Shown here: positions 20,783 to 32,626 of the stretch, in pieces
Layout of the letters: each line of letters starts with the position of its first letter
Numbering within the stretch: the first letter of the stretch is position 1
DNA from: an uncultured Candidatus Melainabacteria bacterium
GTDB taxonomy: Bacteria > Cyanobacteriota > Vampirovibrionia > Gastranaerophilales > Gastranaerophilaceae
Assembly (NCBI GenBank): GCA_949841365.1
Contig: CATKZI010000003.1
Coordinates: 62,001 to 126,000 of the forward strand
Length of the DNA stretch: 64,000 nucleotides
Direction of reading: 5' to 3'
Made by a program: the position numbers and the translations under genes
The notes under the pieces: generated by a model
The model's database searches: none
The model's input: only the letters and a program-made list of their open reading frames with translations
Told to the model about the DNA's origin: nothing

Positions 20783-21490
20783 ATGGCATCAATAAAAGAC
20801 GCATTTGAAGAAAGCTTGCAAGATGAACATGCACTTATGATGTATATTATATTTGCAATTCCTTTGTTTCTTTGCTCAAAATTCCTTCTTGAAGGCGACA
20901 AAACTGTTTATTTTATCGGAACGGCATTATTTACGGCAATTTTATATATAGGATTTTGCCTAAAATGCACTTCCAATGTACGTTCAAGCAGTAATGTCGT
21001 ATTGCCGTCATTCAATATATTTCCGCTTTTATGGAACGGAATCAGAGGGATAATAGTTTTAGCACCGTTAATTATAGTTGCTTATACGCTTGAATATTTC
21101 ATTGCGGGATTTCTCTCAAATATGATAACAAATCCGACAACATTACAAGTTTTTATTGCAATAACAACAGGACTTTGTAATTCAATTGTTTATACAGGTT
21201 ACATTCTTTTTGCCAGAAGGTTTAGAGCAACCGATGTTTATGATTTTAAAACAATAAGCACATATTGCGTAGATATATTAATCGCAGTAATTTTCATGAA
21301 ATTGCAGATGATTTTAGTTAATTTAATCATTGCAGGTCCGATTACATATTTAATCTGGATATTCTTCGGCATTCCGCACCCTGTTGCAACATTTTTCTGG
21401 TGCATTATAGCTGTATTTAATCTCGCTATAATGGGGCATTACATGGCGCAAATTGATTATGAAGTAATAGGTGAAAAAGAAACTGTTTAA
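20783..21490 (+). CDS. Multi-pass membrane protein of unknown function
   Basis: 235 residues, about six hydrophobic segments (near residues 20-36, 44-60, 85-110, 120-145, 165-190, 200-220). The composition, with an amphipathic acidic N-terminus ([16 protein letters not shown]), recalls DUF4013-like membrane proteins, but I cannot confirm it. A TATAAT -10 near 20755, overlapping the end of the kinase gene, and an AAAGGTTGG ribosome-binding region suggest its own promoter. It overlaps the convergent uvrB stop by four bases. Confidence 0.75.
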
Positions 21491-23475
21491 CTTTCCGCCA
21501 TTTCACGAAGTTTTTTAAGCTTATCACGAATTTCTGCAGCGCGTTCAAAATCAAGGATTTTTGCAGCTTTTTTCATATCTTTTTCAAGTTGATCAATAAG
21601 TTTCGGCAAATCTTTTTTGCTTATACCCATGTCAACCATTTCCTCAGCTACAATGTCTTCCAAATCTCTATAACTTGCAACAAGTGACAACAAGTTATTT
21701 TCAATCGGTTTCTTAATAGTTTGAGGAATAATGCCGTATTTTTGGTTATGTTCAAGCTGAATTTTACGACGTCTTTCGGTTTCTGTAATGGCTTTTTCCA
21801 TAGATTCGGTCATTCTGTCCGCATACATAATAACTTCACCGCAAGCATTACGTGCAGCACGTCCGATTGTCTGGATTAAACTGGTTTCTGAGCGCAAGAA
21901 CCCTTCTTTATCCGCGTCCATAATCGCAACAAGCGAAACTTCAGGAATATCCAACCCTTCTCTAAGAAGGTTTACCCCGATAAGGACATCAAATTCACCA
22001 AGACGCAGGTCACGCAAGATTTCAACACGCTCAAGCGACTGAATTTCACTGTGCAAATATCTGACTTTTATACCTTCTTGAATAAAGTAATCAGTCAAAT
22101 CTTCCGCCATACGTTTTGTAAGCGTTGTAATCAATACACGTTCGTTCTTTTCGGTACGTTTTTCAATTTCAGCCTTCAAATCAGTAATCTGCGATTCGAT
22201 AGGACGAACCGAAATTTTCGGGTCAACAAGTCCTGTTGGTCTGATAATCTGTTCTACAAGCTGCGTTGATGTTTGTCGTTCAAACTCAGCAGGGGTTGCC
22301 GAAATATAAATCTTTTGATGAACTTTATTAAAAAATTCCTCATTTTTTAACGGTCTGTTATCTCTTGCACAAGGCAATCTGAAACCGTAATCAATCAGTG
22401 TAGTTTTTCTCGAAGAATCACCATGATACATACCTTTCAACTGCGGAAGCGTAACGTGAGATTCATCAATAACAGTCAAAAAATCACCCTGAAAATAATC
22501 CAAAAGCGTCGCAGGAGCAGAACCCGGCGGTCTGCGTTCAATAATTCTCGAATAATTTTCAATACCGGAACAGTAACCCATTTCCTTAATCATTTCAATA
22601 TCGTATTTCACACGCTGTTCAAGTCTTTGAGCCTCAACAAGCTTATTTTCATTATTAAGTTCAACAAGCCTGTGCTGTAATTCTTCTCTAATTAAAGCAA
22701 TTGTTTCATCTACATTTTCATCATAAGAAAGATAATGAACCGCAGGATAAATCACGACACTTTCCGGAGTTTCGATAACTTCACCCGTTACATTATCAAT
22801 TCTGACAATTTTTTCAATTTCGTCACCAAAGAAATAAATTCTGGTGACAATTTTTTCATACGCAGGCATGATTTCAACAATATCACCGCGCGCTCTGAAA
22901 GTAGAACGTTCCAAGACTAAATCATTTCTTGTATATTGAACACTCACAAGATGCTTAAGCAAGTCATCACGCGCCACTTCATCACCTACTTTAAGCTCAA
23001 CAGAACCCCTGAAATAATTTTCAGGAAGTCCCAAACCATAAATACAGCTTACGGAAGCCACAATAATAACGTCGTTTCTTTCATACAAACATCTTGTTGC
23101 ATTGTGCCTCAAACGGTCAATTTCTTCATTAATAGACGCTGATTTTTCAATAAACGTATCTGTACGCGGGATATACGCTTCAGGCTGATAGTAATCATAG
23201 TAACTTATAAAATACTCAACCGCGTTATCGGGAAAAAGTTCTTTAAACTCGTTATAAAGCTGTGCCGCAAGCGTCTTGTTATGCGCAATAATAAGCGTTG
23301 GTTTTTGCACCCGCTCAATTACATTTGCTATAGTAAAAGTTTTACCCGAACCTGTAATACCTAAAAGGGTTTGAGCATCATCACCGTTTTGCAATCCTTC
23401 AACAAGTTTATCGATTGCTTTTGGTTGATCACCCGATGGCGAATATTTTGAAGAAATTTTAAATTTTCTGTCCAT
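21487..23475 (-). CDS. uvrB: Excinuclease ABC subunit B
   Basis: Damage-verification helicase of nucleotide excision repair. Walker [17 protein letters not shown], the beta-hairpin region [39 protein letters not shown] (motif II), QTIGRAARN (motif VI) and a C-terminal UVR motif ([19 protein letters not shown]) are all present. Length 662 residues is normal. I choose the ATG at 23475 rather than an in-frame TTG at 23499 because a TGTTATAAT extended -10 lies between them, so the upstream codon would not be transcribed. uvrA and uvrC are not nearby. Confidence 0.97.
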
Positions 23476-23481
23476 AATTAA

Positions 23482-23490
23482 ATTATAACA
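23482..23490 (-). promoter_or_regulatory. Extended -10 promoter for uvrB, predicted leaderless
   Basis: On the minus strand TGTTATAAT (TATAAT at 23487-23482) is followed by six bases and the uvrB ATG. No Shine-Dalgarno is present, and the predicted transcription start coincides with the A of ATG. The -35 region is weak. Confidence 0.65.
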
Positions 23491-23529
23491 TAGTAGCAAA
23501 AAAATTTATTATGTGTTTATATATATTAT

Positions 23530-27040: not shown

Positions 27041-29164
27041 CTAATTCATTTTCAAAGTTTGCAAAGCCTGTTGTTCTGCAAATTCCGCTCTACGCATAGC
27101 TTTGTCGGCTTCAGTCATATCTTCGCCTTGATTTAATTGAACACCTATCGGAGAAGGAACATAATTTCTCAAAGGTTCATTATTTGGCTTATTTACAGTC
27201 GGAGTTTGACCATTTTTGTATTTATTTAACAAGTTTGTCTGGCTTTTTCCGTCCTGCAAAATTTGTACTCCTTGTGATGACGGAATATAAGTTCTGCCGT
27301 TTGGAAGTGCCTGCTTAGCTGTTTGTTGCGCCTGTTGAACCGTTTGAGGATTTTGAAGTTGTTGAGGAATATTTGCCTGCTGCTGTGCCTCAGGTTTAGG
27401 TTCTTTATCTTCATCAAGCAATGAGTGTTTCGGTTTACCGAATATTTTATGACAACCTTTTACGGCAAGTTTAGAGAAGAACGGCATAATAACCATCATA
27501 CCTAAAATTATTCTCATCGGATAGCCTGCCATCTGCTTAAATCCGAATTTGAAATGTCCCGGACTCTTGAACATATCTTTTATTTTTTCCATAACGGTTT
27601 TTCTTGTTGAAGCTTTTGACTGATAAGGTCTTATTTGTTCAAGCCCAACCGATACAATGCGTCCGATACGTTTGCAAAGGTTTGTGAACGGATTTTTAAC
27701 GCCTGCTTTAAGCTCTTTTCGCAATGCTTTTTTGCCAGCTTTCCATTCAGCTTTTGACATTTTGCCTGCCATCGCTTTTTCATTGAAAGCTTTTAAATGC
27801 TGTCTGTATGCTTCAACCTCTTGTTTTGTCATACCGGCATATTGCAAACCGCCGACTTTATGCATCAACATAATTGCAGGAGGAATACAAGCAAACATTG
27901 CAACAAGTTCTGTGAAGCGTTCTGCAAATGTCTTAGCTTTTTCACCCGCACCGCCTTCGGCTTTAGCTGATTTATAGATAGCTTCCGCCAAGAACCATGC
28001 CTGCATAATCGCAATTAATTTACCGCCTGCAACCCTGTTTGTTGCACCTTCCAATATAATATTGTTATATTTTGCTATGAATTTACCCAATGCAGATTTA
28101 GGAATTTTCTTATCTAATCCTGTATCTTTTAAAGCTTTAGCCATTTCGGGAGTTAAAGTTTCGTTACCGATTGAACTTGCCATTTTGTTTGCAAATTCTG
28201 AACCGTAAACTTTTCTTCCGAATAAAAAACGTTTAAATCTACCCCACAAAGTCGGTTTAGCTTCATAAGCAATTGAAAACATATTTCTGTTTGCATTATG
28301 GGAAGATTCCATAATTCTATGCAAATAATCGGGTCTGTTCTTTTTAATGAGTTCAAATTCTGCAAAATCTTTTAGACCAAATTCAAAAGCTTTGGCATCT
28401 TTTAAAAGTTTTGCACGTGCAGCCGCATCAGTCGGAAGCGAACCTGTTAAGAAAGTATTACCGCCCCTTGTATATTTTTTCAAAAGTTCAAATTCAGCTT
28501 TTTGTAATTCTGCAAACTGTTGAGCTTTTGGCAATTTACTTATTCTTGCTTTATATGCTTCAATTTCAGATGCTTTTGCACCGTAAGCTGCCAAATCATC
28601 TACATGATGCGTATCTCTGATGAAATTATCGACAACCTGATCCCAATCGGTTGCACAGAACCCGAGCATACCTCTTGCCTGATCTCTAACCATTGAAAGT
28701 TCAGGTTTTGACGGAGTATCACAGAATGCTCTTAAAATTCTTGATTTATCGACTATTTTGGTACGTACAAATTTTTTAAAAGATTTATAACCTTTGCCGA
28801 TTGACTGCATAAAGCTGTTTTTGCCGAGCCTGTCCGAAACCCTGTCGCCCCATGCACCAATTTTGCCGGGGATAGTTTTCTCATAATCACCACGGCAATG
28901 TTCTGCATATTTGTCCATACCCTTGGCAATTCCGTACCATGCAGGAATAGTTAAACCTGCTGTCCACAACATACCTTTAGGGTCATCAGTCGTATTTGCA
29001 ACCCTGTTTGCAACATAAGTATCCTGAACATTTTCTTTTAAAAGTTCAGGATTAACACCCGCCTGCATAGTAATCTGCTGTCTTAATTGCTCCTGCTGCT
29101 GCGGAGTTAAAGACTGAAACTGCATTTGAGCCTGCTGCTGTTTTTGGACATTATTGTCGAGCAT
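27041..29164 (-). CDS. Large lineage-specific protein with Gln-rich ends
   Basis: 707 residues, family unknown. The first 40 residues are Gln-rich (VQKQQQAQMQFQSLTPQQQE). The middle is basic and helical, with hydrophobic segments near residues 410-435 (GKLIAIMQAWFLAEAIYKSA), 450-470 (ELVAMFACIPPAIMLMHKV) and 570-590 (MRIILGMMVIMPFFSKLAV). The C-terminal 130 residues are Gln/Pro/Asn-rich and contain two copies of a motif, RTYIPSSQGVQILQDG and RNYVPSPIGVQLNQGE. The start at 29164 follows a GGGGAAAC ribosome-binding site. It may be a surface or membrane-remodelling protein, but this is a guess. Confidence 0.75.
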   Translation of the reverse strand: MLDNNVQKQQQAQMQFQSLTPQQQEQLRQQITMQAGVNPELLKENVQDTYVANRVANTTDDPKGMLWTAGLTIPAWYGIAKGMDKYAEHCRGDYEKTIPGKIGAWGDRVSDRLGKNSFMQSIGKGYKSFKKFVRTKIVDKSRILRAFCDTPSKPELSMVRDQARGMLGFCATDWDQVVDNFIRDTHHVDDLAAYGAKASEIEAYKARISKLPKAQQFAELQKAEFELLKKYTRGGNTFLTGSLPTDAAARAKLLKDAKAFEFGLKDFAEFELIKKNRPDYLHRIMESSHNANRNMFSIAYEAKPTLWGRFKRFLFGRKVYGSEFANKMASSIGNETLTPEMAKALKDTGLDKKIPKSALGKFIAKYNNIILEGATNRVAGGKLIAIMQAWFLAEAIYKSAKAEGGAGEKAKTFAERFTELVAMFACIPPAIMLMHKVGGLQYAGMTKQEVEAYRQHLKAFNEKAMAGKMSKAEWKAGKKALRKELKAGVKNPFTNLCKRIGRIVSVGLEQIRPYQSKASTRKTVMEKIKDMFKSPGHFKFGFKQMAGYPMRIILGMMVIMPFFSKLAVKGCHKIFGKPKHSLLDEDKEPKPEAQQQANIPQQLQNPQTVQQAQQTAKQALPNGRTYIPSSQGVQILQDGKSQTNLLNKYKNGQTPTVNKPNNEPLRNYVPSPIGVQLNQGEDMTEADKAMRRAEFAEQQALQTLKMN

Positions 29165-29213
29165 AGTTTCCCCTATATAGATATAAAAACAATTTTTCGT
29201 CAATAATTGATTT

Positions 29214-29280
29214 AATGTAACGAAATGTAACAAGAAAAACAAAAACTGAAATTAAGAAGTTTGTATATACTTTATATATA
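29214..29280 (+). promoter_or_regulatory. Bipartite promoter motif, copy B
   Basis: AATGTAACG-AA-ATGTAACAA (29214-29233), 13 bases, TGAAATTA (29247-29254), 9 bases, TATATACTTTATATATA (29264-29280). Spacings are identical to copy A at 11384-11449. It lies upstream of the small gene at 29349. Confidence 0.5.
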
Positions 29281-29575: not shown

Positions 29576-29619
29576 GTGCTATGCACGCAGCCACATCGGG
29601 GGCTCATATACAGTTTTTA

Positions 29620-29628
29620 TGGTACAAT
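29620..29628 (+). promoter_or_regulatory. Extended -10 promoter for nadD, predicted leaderless
   Basis: TGGTACAAT (TACAAT at 29623-29628) is followed by six bases and the nadD ATG at 29635; no Shine-Dalgarno and no clear -35. Confidence 0.6.
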
Positions 29629-29634
29629 TTGATT

Positions 29635-30144
29635 ATGAAACTTTGTATTTTTGCAGGTACATTCAATCCTATACACAGAGCACATCTTAAAATGGCTGAG
29701 CTTGCACTCGAGGAATACGGATTTGACAAAATTCTGTTTATTCCCGCATACAATCCTCCGCATAAAGATGTTGAATTGAGCGAACATCGCTATAATATGG
29801 TAAAGCTTGCGATACAAAATAACCCGAAATTTGAGATTTCCGATATTGAATACCAACGAAAAGGAAAATCTTACACATACCTGACGATTTTAGAATTATA
29901 CAAAAAATATGATATTGAAGGTAAAATAAGTTTTATAATAGGACAAGATTCCATTGAAAAATTTGACACCTGGTATGAAGCTGAAAAACTCAAAAATTTG
30001 ATTGAATTTGTTCCGTTTGAAAGATTACCTGAAGATATTTCATCATCAGAAATAAGACAAAGAGTAAAAGAAAACAAACCGATAGACGATTTAGTCACAA
30101 AAGAAGTAGGAGATTACATTGAAAGACACAGACTTTATAAATAA
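29635..30144 (+). CDS. nadD: Nicotinate-nucleotide adenylyltransferase
   Basis: Adenylates nicotinate mononucleotide in NAD synthesis. KLCIFAGTFNPIHRAHLKMA carries the nucleotidyltransferase GxFxPxHxxH motif (His residues in IHRAH), with IPAYNPPHK following and SSSEIRQRVKENKPI (the ISSTxIR motif) near the C-terminus. 169 residues, slightly short but complete. I start at 29635 because an upstream in-frame ATG at 29581 precedes the promoter -10. Its end overlaps yqeK by 26 bases, a gene pairing common in bacteria. Confidence 0.95.
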   Translation: MKLCIFAGTFNPIHRAHLKMAELALEEYGFDKILFIPAYNPPHKDVELSEHRYNMVKLAIQNNPKFEISDIEYQRKGKSYTYLTILELYKKYDIEGKISFIIGQDSIEKFDTWYEAEKLKNLIEFVPFERLPEDISSSEIRQRVKENKPIDDLVTKEVGDYIERHRLYK

Positions 30145-30697
30145 TTGGCTCAAAGAAAACTTATCAGAGGAAAGATATTTTCACACACTCGGCACTGCTG
30201 ATTGTGCAAAAGAATTGGCGCAAAAATTTAAACTCAATCTTGACAAAGCATATATTGCAGGACTTTTACACGATTGTGCAAAATGTTTTTCTAATGAAAA
30301 ATTGTTAGAAATTATAAAATCTCATTTGCAGGTTGAAGAATGTGAAATGCTGAATTACAAAACACTTCATGCACCTGTCAGCGCATATATTGCAGAAAAT
30401 GAATTTGGAGTAACAGATAGAGAGATTTTATCTGCAATAAGGTGGCACACACTCGGCAAACTTGATATGACAGATTTTGAAAAAATAGTTTTTTTAGCAG
30501 ACAAAATCGAACCTAACACAAGAGATAAAGAATATTCCGACAAAATCCGCACACTACTTGATGAAGGAAACGGTTTGAACAAAGCATTACTGAAATGTTA
30601 CAAAGAAACCATAAAAAGTCTTGTAAAACGAGATTTAAAAATCTGTTTATTGACAATTGAAATCTATAATAAACTTCAAGATATAGTGCAAAATTAG
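30119..30697 (+). CDS. yqeK: HD-domain dinucleoside tetraphosphate hydrolase YqeK
   Basis: HD phosphohydrolase of the YqeK family, which cleaves Ap4A symmetrically. The metal ligands are in RYFHTLGTADCAKELA (first His), LLHDCAK (HD), LHAPVSAYIA, and IRWHTLGKLDMTDFEKIVFLADKIEPN (later His and Asp). 192 residues is normal. It starts at a TTG after TAGGAG, within the end of nadD, so the two are translationally coupled; adjacency of nadD and yqeK supports both calls. Confidence 0.92.
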   Translation: MKDTDFINNWLKENLSEERYFHTLGTADCAKELAQKFKLNLDKAYIAGLLHDCAKCFSNEKLLEIIKSHLQVEECEMLNYKTLHAPVSAYIAENEFGVTDREILSAIRWHTLGKLDMTDFEKIVFLADKIEPNTRDKEYSDKIRTLLDEGNGLNKALLKCYKETIKSLVKRDLKICLLTIEIYNKLQDIVQN

Positions 30698-30739: not shown

Positions 30740-32626
30740 ATGAAGGTTTTGGAAATTAAGAACAATTTGGTTAAAGTAGCATTTGATGTGGCTGACAATC
30801 TTGCATTGGGCGGATTTATCATCATAGAAGATGCAAACAATCCGTATGTTGCACAGATTATGAACTTAAAATCCGAACCTGCATCAAATTATGCTATCGT
30901 AAAATTACTGTTCACTTTTAACGATGAAGGCATTTTGAAAAATTATAACGGCACAATCCCTTCACTCAATGCCAATGTTTCCAAACTTCCGGCAAGCGAA
31001 CTTCTTGACATTATTCCGGCAGAAGATCCGATTATTGTAGGAAGCCTTGCTCAGCAAGATGTTAACCTTAACATTGACAAGACTATTTTAGAAAATAATT
31101 TGTTAATATGCTCAAATAACCTTAGCAATACCACTACACTTTTAAGCAACATAACAGAACAAATTAAAGAAAAAGCAATTATAATTGATACCGAAGGTCA
31201 ATTTGAATGGGACAGAGCAATTGCGATAGGTAAAGATTTTAAACTGCCGTTAAATTTTGACACTATCAACTACATATATGAAAATGACCTTGAAGATGTT
31301 GATGCTGTCAGCAAGGCAATGATTCAGGATATTTTTATTGAAGTTCAAGACTATATCCAAACCTTACCTGAAAGATTTTTACCGTTTGATACATTTATCA
31401 ATGTAATTGACAGCCAATACAGAGAAACACAAATCCCGCAATTAATCCTTTTGAAAAATAAATTGCTTAAATACAAAGAATTGAATATATTCGCAGATAC
31501 TTTAAAAGATATTCTTGATTTAAGTATGGCTGTAGAGAGTGCTAAAAATATCAGCATAGACTTATCAGAAATTCCCGAAAACCTTCAAAAAGAAGTTATC
31601 AGATATATTTATTCAATCCTAAACAGCATAAACGAACAAATTTACTGCTTTGTTAAGGTGAATAATGCAAATATCAGCAAAAAGCTGTTAAAAAGATATA
31701 TAGCAAGAGACAATGTATTCACGATAGTAATTTGTCCGCATGAATTCAAATATATTGAAGAAATCAAAGAAGCTTCACAAAACATTATATTTTTTGCTCC
31801 GCTTACATTACAGCACGATTTTGCAAGCTACAATTCATTCTTGGGCAAATTGAACAATGATGAATTTGTAATTTACGGTGCACACACTCAAAATATACCG
31901 TTCATAACAGAAATCACTCCGGTTGAAGAAATTGAGACACAAGAAGTTGTTCCAATGCCTGAACCGACACAAGCTCAGGTGCAAGAGGAATTTCCCGAAA
32001 TAAATTATCCTGAAATCGCAGAAGAAGAAATTATTGAAGAACCTGTTATTGAAGAAGAACCTGCAGAGTTTGAGCAGGAAGAAATTCCTATGTATAACGA
32101 GGTTCAACCTGTAGATAATATTCTTGATGATAATAATGTTATTTATGAACCTTTAGAAGGACAGGAACCTCTTGATGTTGTTGAGCAGGAGGGAGTTTCT
32201 AACGATGAAATCATAGAACAGGTTGCCAAAGATGTTGATAAAGTTTTTTATGAAAAACTTCCTGCAGAAGAAGATGACGAAATTGAATTTGAACCGCAAG
32301 AAGATTTAACAGAAGATGACCTCAATTTAATCGATGACTTAGCTGTTAACGACGATATTTCACTTGTAGGAGAAGATGAAATTTCAGAATTTGACAACTA
32401 CGAAGAAGAACTCCCGCCTGTAGTTCCAATTTATCCTGCAGAAGAAGAATTAGACAGTGAAACACAGTCATTTGAACCGGGGGATAGAGTATCTACAGCT
32501 AAATACGGTGAAGGTGTTGTCGAAAAAATGATTAAATATGGCAATAAAATGCTTTGTTCAATAGATTTTCCAAATATCGGCAGAAGACTTTTAGACCCCG
32601 CAATAACAGAGATTACAAGACTGTAA
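30740..32626 (+). CDS. HerA-like pseudo-ATPase with acidic linker and C-terminal Tudor domain
   Basis: 628 residues, an unusual combination. Residues 1-95 resemble the small beta-barrel of HerA/FtsK-class ATPases. At residues 120-160 the Walker A place is filled by LLICSNNLSNTTTLLSNI, lacking GxGK(S/T), while AIIIDTEGQFEW occupies the Walker B/strand position. Residues about 170-400 continue the ATPase-like fold (FVKVNNANISKKLL, FTIVICPHEFKYIEEIKEAS). Residues about 405-565 are a disordered, Glu/Asp/Pro-rich linker. Residues about 570-628 (FEPGDRVSTAKYGEGVVEKM) form a UvrD/PcrA-type Tudor domain, which in PcrA contacts RNA polymerase. A GTGAGGG ribosome-binding site precedes it. Nucleotide hydrolysis seems unlikely; the role is unknown. 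Confidence 0.65.
   Translation: MKVLEIKNNLVKVAFDVADNLALGGFIIIEDANNPYVAQIMNLKSEPASNYAIVKLLFTFNDEGILKNYNGTIPSLNANVSKLPASELLDIIPAEDPIIVGSLAQQDVNLNIDKTILENNLLICSNNLSNTTTLLSNITEQIKEKAIIIDTEGQFEWDRAIAIGKDFKLPLNFDTINYIYENDLEDVDAVSKAMIQDIFIEVQDYIQTLPERFLPFDTFINVIDSQYRETQIPQLILLKNKLLKYKELNIFADTLKDILDLSMAVESAKNISIDLSEIPENLQKEVIRYIYSILNSINEQIYCFVKVNNANISKKLLKRYIARDNVFTIVICPHEFKYIEEIKEASQNIIFFAPLTLQHDFASYNSFLGKLNNDEFVIYGAHTQNIPFITEITPVEEIETQEVVPMPEPTQAQVQEEFPEINYPEIAEEEIIEEPVIEEEPAEFEQEEIPMYNEVQPVDNILDDNNVIYEPLEGQEPLDVVEQEGVSNDEIIEQVAKDVDKVFYEKLPAEEDDEIEFEPQEDLTEDDLNLIDDLAVNDDISLVGEDEISEFDNYEEELPPVVPIYPAEEELDSETQSFEPGDRVSTAKYGEGVVEKMIKYGNKMLCSIDFPNIGRRLLDPAITEITRL

Follow-up and report, generated by a model that had tools for sequence, protein, structure and literature searches.

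The window, as we refer to the whole 64,000-nucleotide stretch of DNA analysed here, carries a gene whose protein is a variant of the HerA fold with a PcrA-type Tudor domain attached, an architecture that we did not meet in the literature searched. The gene belongs to the chromosomal core of the Gastranaerophilales (Melainabacteria), a branch of the cyanobacteria that dwells in guts and does not photosynthesise, and what appears to be a dead HerA-type motor is thus part of the core genome of a whole bacterial order from animal guts. When a dead DNA motor stays under strong selection, it is usually the sign of a regulatory or structural machine. Our search of the open-access literature found no description of a HerA–Tudor protein from this group. 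The open-reading frame lies where the original prediction had placed it, begins with ATG and belongs to an assembly of 1.69 Mb; its start is 42 bases past yqeK, which itself follows nadD.

Table 1. Features of the HerA–Tudor gene and of the neighbouring genes discussed in the text (window coordinates).
Feature	Residues	Position	Strand	Basis or remark
Whole gene: HerA-fold pseudo-ATPase (predicted), acidic linker, Tudor	1-628	30740..32626	+	628 aa
HerA-fold domain (predicted) with N-terminal beta barrel	1-396	30740..31927	+	Structure model, fold search, profile alignment
SNNLSNTT, place of Walker A	125-132	31112..31135	+	Profile alignment, motif survey
AIIIDTEGQF, HerA DxxGE(Y/F)-type strand	146-155	31175..31204	+	Profile alignment, motif survey
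FVKVNNA, place of Walker B, acidic pair lost	304-310	31649..31669	+	Profile alignment, motif survey
CPHEF, place of HerA SQRP sensor	332-336	31733..31747	+	Profile alignment, motif survey
Acidic linker, predicted disordered	394-576	31919..32467	+	Composition, full-length model
Short helix in linker (predicted)	488-504	32201..32251	+	Full-length model
LTEDDLNLI, within predicted helix 525-536	523-531	32306..32332	+	Pattern search, model
VVPIY, ahead of Tudor	561-565	32420..32434	+	Kept in most of the order
PcrA/UvrD-type Tudor	577-628	32468..32623	+	Profiles, model
nadD and yqeK, upstream neighbours		29581..30697	+	Kept in nearly all own-family loci
uvrB, candidate Tudor partner, exact helicase interaction motif IDNVTGEVI	234-242 (motif)	21487..23499	-	Motif match

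The original prediction had proposed a HerA-like fold with a barrel-like N-terminus, and both structure and profiles bear this out. An AlphaFold2 model of residues 1-402, built with 35 homologues (mean pLDDT 88.2, pTM 0.84), found 8ziq_M as its best Foldseek match in the PDB (E 3e-16), and the 50 best PDB matches were HerA or HerA complexes by title, save a few whose titles read simply ‘bacterial protein’ or ‘anti-phage defense complex’. Structural realignment to Sulfolobus HerA (4d2i_B) spanned residues 1-398, the N-terminal barrel included, with a Z of 26.3 and an rmsd of 3.9 over 378 residues at 16% identity, and the family profile reached the same structure at E 1.1e-7. Pfam DUF87 (PF01935) was matched by 13 of the 35 members (best 2.1e-9), the window member searched alone against Pfam giving no DUF87 match; aligned profile to profile, the family and canonical HerA-type ATPases of the order matched up over 393-399 columns. 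The predicted HerA-like fold thus holds, for residues 1-396, in both model and profiles. The membrane ATPase VirB4, which had been named beside HerA for comparison, falls behind HerA, as 4ag6 (Z 21.5) aligns only with residues 94-400, and the suggested link to membrane-bound machinery gains no support. We also rejected a degenerate copy of a resident HerA, as the genome itself has no DUF87 match over the cut-off; across 117 genomes of the order nine DUF87 matches were found, four of which are the family itself (G037, G049, G051 and G056) and five other P-loop ATPases. Canonical HerA-type ATPases with an intact Walker A do occur sporadically in the order (L143, L144, L145), separate from the HerA–Tudor family.

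The ATPase site appears to have been erased throughout the family. In a motif survey of its 78 distinct N-domains, the Walker A pattern GxxxxGK[ST] occurred in none, no acidic pair was conserved at the place of Walker B, and the sensor position held His rather than Gln in 66 members; the pseudo-ATPase reading, first proposed because SNNLSNTT stands where Walker A should be, can therefore rightly be extended from the window protein to the whole family. No homologue had an intact GxGKT at the same place. Profile-profile alignment sets the canonical GSTGAGKS against CSNNLSN of the window protein, the CEEAH region of the canonical L143 against VKVNNA, and AKEGRKYG...SQRP against RYIARDN...CPHEF, such that the GRKYG arginine and the SQRP sensor are replaced by ARDN and CPHEF, respectively. 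AIIIDTEGQF, originally taken for Walker B, aligns instead with the DxxGE(Y/F) strand, and the Walker B place is occupied by FVKVNNA. Judged by these motifs, the protein would probably not bind nucleotide. Compared with HerA hexameric DNA translocases (PF01935/DUF87; 4d2i from Sulfolobus, 8xau and 8zir from bacteria), it shares the fold of the whole domain including the N-terminal barrel and partly keeps the DxxGE(Y/F)-type strand, but lacks equivalents of Walker A, Walker B, the arginine and the sensor Gln, and adds an acidic linker and a Tudor. Because the HerA fold is kept and the defining catalytic features fail, we do not call the protein a HerA translocase. A precedent for a retained dead fold is the DUF domain of EccC5, a degenerate ATPase fold kept within its machine (PMC11154593); EccC5 is a type VII secretion ATPase and has no Tudor.

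The linker is disordered in the full-length model (mean pLDDT 74.7), in which most of it falls below 50 save two short helices. The original figure of about 160 acidic residues was right if taken to mean how long the acidic stretch is and wrong as a residue count, since the 183 aa contain 66 D/E versus 3 K/R. Every member has an acidic linker, ranging in length from 124 to 625 aa. The motif LTEDDLNLI is present in 18 of the 19 own-family members examined (L083 is the exception), and the same pattern found no match in the other families of the order.

The C-terminus is clearly, by its profiles, a Tudor of the PcrA/UvrD type, as originally proposed. The Tudor family profile matched the solved PcrA/UvrD Tudor 9dqs at E 1.2e-8, and PF21196 (PcrA_UvrD_tudor) matched 29 of 29 members at E<=1 (best 1.3e-8), the window member scoring 20.5 bits, below the curated cut-off of 23.9. 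Five strands are predicted within residues 583-627 (pLDDT about 88 in the full-length model), the stretch FEPGDRVSTAKYGEGVV lies at about residues 578-594, and most members have a VPIY-type motif ahead of the Tudor. Shared with the PcrA/UvrD C-terminal Tudors (PF21196; 5dma, 6yi2, 9dqs) are the GDxVxHxKYGxGxV core, a basic residue and a Leu at RNA polymerase (RNAP) contact positions and a long disordered stretch that tethers the domain to the main body; differences are an LLDP ending peculiar to the HerA–Tudor family and the main body itself, a HerA fold here and an SF1 helicase there. Geobacillus PcrA depends on four residues to bind RNAP, H681, W684, K712 and L714 (PMC5397179), for which the window protein has T586, Y589, R616 and L618, an equivalence that rests on the family alignment together with the residue numbers and spacing as published, and that includes a deletion of one residue ahead of the GRRLL stretch. 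The positions of Y589 and R616 are invariant, and that of T586 is occupied by H in most distant members. The Mfd/CarD RNAP interaction domain (RID, PF02559), which has a Tudor-like fold in common and binds a different RNAP site (PMC7585439), gave weak matches in 23 of the 29 members, weaker than those of PF21196. An origin of the Tudor from a lost PcrA was ruled out, as the genome still has a PcrA with its own Tudor.

The full-length protein found a match in each of the 58 near relatives that were searched; the match in G057, a genome of another order, is only to the Tudor of a longer open-reading frame. In a wider sample of 292 genomes across the phylum, the N-domain profile matched 131, all but one in Gastranaerophilales, and the only genome of the order listed without a match was G137 (110 contigs). 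The single match outside the order (G382) is weak (E 9e-4) and covers a partial stretch, other orders of the class gave only weak matches above E 0.01, and the gene was thus not convincingly found beyond the order in this sample, judged by profile. Against four close relatives, dN/dS was 0.03-0.08 for the N-domain, 0.16-0.36 for the linker and, in those comparisons that allowed a value, 0.01-0.05 for the Tudor, by a simple Nei-Gojobori estimate in which synonymous sites approach saturation in more distant pairs. The low ratio of the N-domain and the order-wide presence therefore rule out a mobile newcomer or a decaying gene. No relatives of the protein were found in viral contigs or plasmids and PADLOC gave no match, and on these grounds we rejected an anti-phage system.

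Gene context differs between families of the order. In the family to which the window belongs, nadD and yqeK lie directly upstream in nearly every locus that reaches far enough; in the window itself the immediate neighbours are these two and a protein whose GDSL/DUF1574 matches are only weak. A nuclease or effector is the usual working partner of HerA proteins, but no NurA, Sir2 or DUF4297 was found among these immediate neighbours. In nine loci of other families the gene is divergently adjoined by a comM/YifB-type Mg-chelatase-like helicase gene (L085, L088, L089, L090, L093, L094, L096, L098, L100), and in seven a gene for a protein of ~150 aa lies directly upstream (L084, L085, L086, L089, L094, L098, L100). 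The ~150-aa protein has invariant W-K-G and K-H residues, with no Pfam match over the cut-off and no NCBIfam match, and its gene is present in 10 of the 58 relatives and in none of the own-family genomes searched. That the neighbours vary by family speaks against a single operon partner being obligatory throughout the order.

Candidate partners of the Tudor can be compared with those of PcrA. In Bacillus, the docking site of the PcrA Tudor on RpoB is a TGE hairpin within the SI1 insert, and the same TGE helicase interaction motif occurs in UvrB (PMC8318588). Cyanobacteria, Margulisbacteria and Melainabacteria are reported to have a type 1 beta subunit without lineage-specific inserts (PMC11515920). 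In line with this, a scan of RpoB from the same genome as the window found neither the strict TGE motif nor the SI1 insert; a near-match towards the C-terminus (IDGRTGEKF) failed the pattern at its last two positions. UvrB from the same genome matches the motif exactly, and because RpoB has neither motif nor insert, the known motif rule points first to UvrB as the putative partner, which weakens the RNAP connection drawn in the original prediction (PMC8318588, PMC11515920). The uvrB gene lies ~7 kb from the HerA–Tudor gene on the opposite strand and shares no operon with it. Since PcrA has its own Tudor too, partners may be common to both proteins or contested between them. Where RNAP lacks the PcrA docking hairpin, the Tudor would be predicted to dock on UvrB or on another site, and either answer would inform how PcrA-type Tudors choose partners without SI1, the condition reported for Cyanobacteria and their relatives.

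Starting from the computed fold, motif loss, Tudor family, linker disorder, distribution and UvrB motif, we infer a lack of ATP binding, an oligomer, a partner and a role as follows. The explanation that we tentatively prefer, at a little short of even confidence, is a non-hydrolysing HerA-fold platform that presents the Tudor to repair (UvrB) or transcription partners. Because all ATPase motifs are lost yet purifying selection is strong, residues 1-~396 would most likely serve as a structural, non-translocating platform, which may be a HerA-like ring or part of one. The long disordered acidic tether would carry the Tudor, which would dock on a partner with a TGE beta-hairpin; among the two known partner proteins tested, this motif occurs in UvrB and is absent from RNA polymerase beta. 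The protein might thereby gather repair (possibly transcription) machinery, or modulate PcrA through common docking partners. A more elaborate form, a ring-shaped non-hydrolysing HerA derivative with up to six tethered Tudors acting as a multivalent hub that couples nucleotide excision repair (UvrB) and transcription, seems unlikely, and no description of such a scaffold was found in the literature searched. Against the platform stand the lack of an adjacent nuclease or effector of the kind usual for HerA and the position of uvrB outside any operon with the gene; the comM and 150-aa neighbours of other families may point to other partners, and the acidic N-domain of the window protein (pI 4.6) does not favour DNA binding.

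A rather unlikely alternative has the Tudor bind RNAP away from the SI1 hairpin, with the HerA fold linking transcription to another machine. Tudors of UvrD and PcrA do bind RNAP (PMC5397179, PMC7585439), and the type of this Tudor, its basic residue kept as R616 and the weak RID matches all fit such a tether; the absence of both docking motif and insert from RpoB, as reported for Melainabacteria in general (PMC11515920), and the T in place of H681 in the window member argue against it. The adjacency of comM and of the 150-aa gene in other families would suit an accessory role in recombination or DNA uptake, the HerA–Tudor protein acting alongside the ComM branch-migration helicase and the 150-aa protein as a scaffold on recombining DNA. 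We consider this accessory role quite unlikely, as neither gene adjoins in the window's own family, the 150-aa gene is missing from all its genomes searched, and a divergent arrangement is a poor indicator that genes are functionally linked. The protein might also have no machine of its own and simply occupy the partners of PcrA, limiting its recruitment, as the genome has a second Tudor protein besides PcrA and free PcrA Tudor blocks PcrA–RNAP binding in Bacillus (PMC8318588); this is improbable, however, since the HerA domain is conserved as strongly as the Tudor, which would be needless for a mere decoy. An active but unorthodox ATPase with a non-canonical phosphate-binding loop would fit the invariance of D150 (DxxG strand) across all 78 members, but is barely credible, given that replacements affect all four sites, Walker A, Walker B, arginine and sensor, and that the Walker A stretch varies from member to member.

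Two further genes were recorded. In family f6, a gene for an LdpA-like Fe-S protein lies divergent from the HerA–Tudor gene (L092:3949-4818, L095:3861-4757). The window itself encodes, at 27041-29242 on the minus strand, a 733-aa orphan protein that has no Pfam match over the cut-off and is conserved in close relatives.
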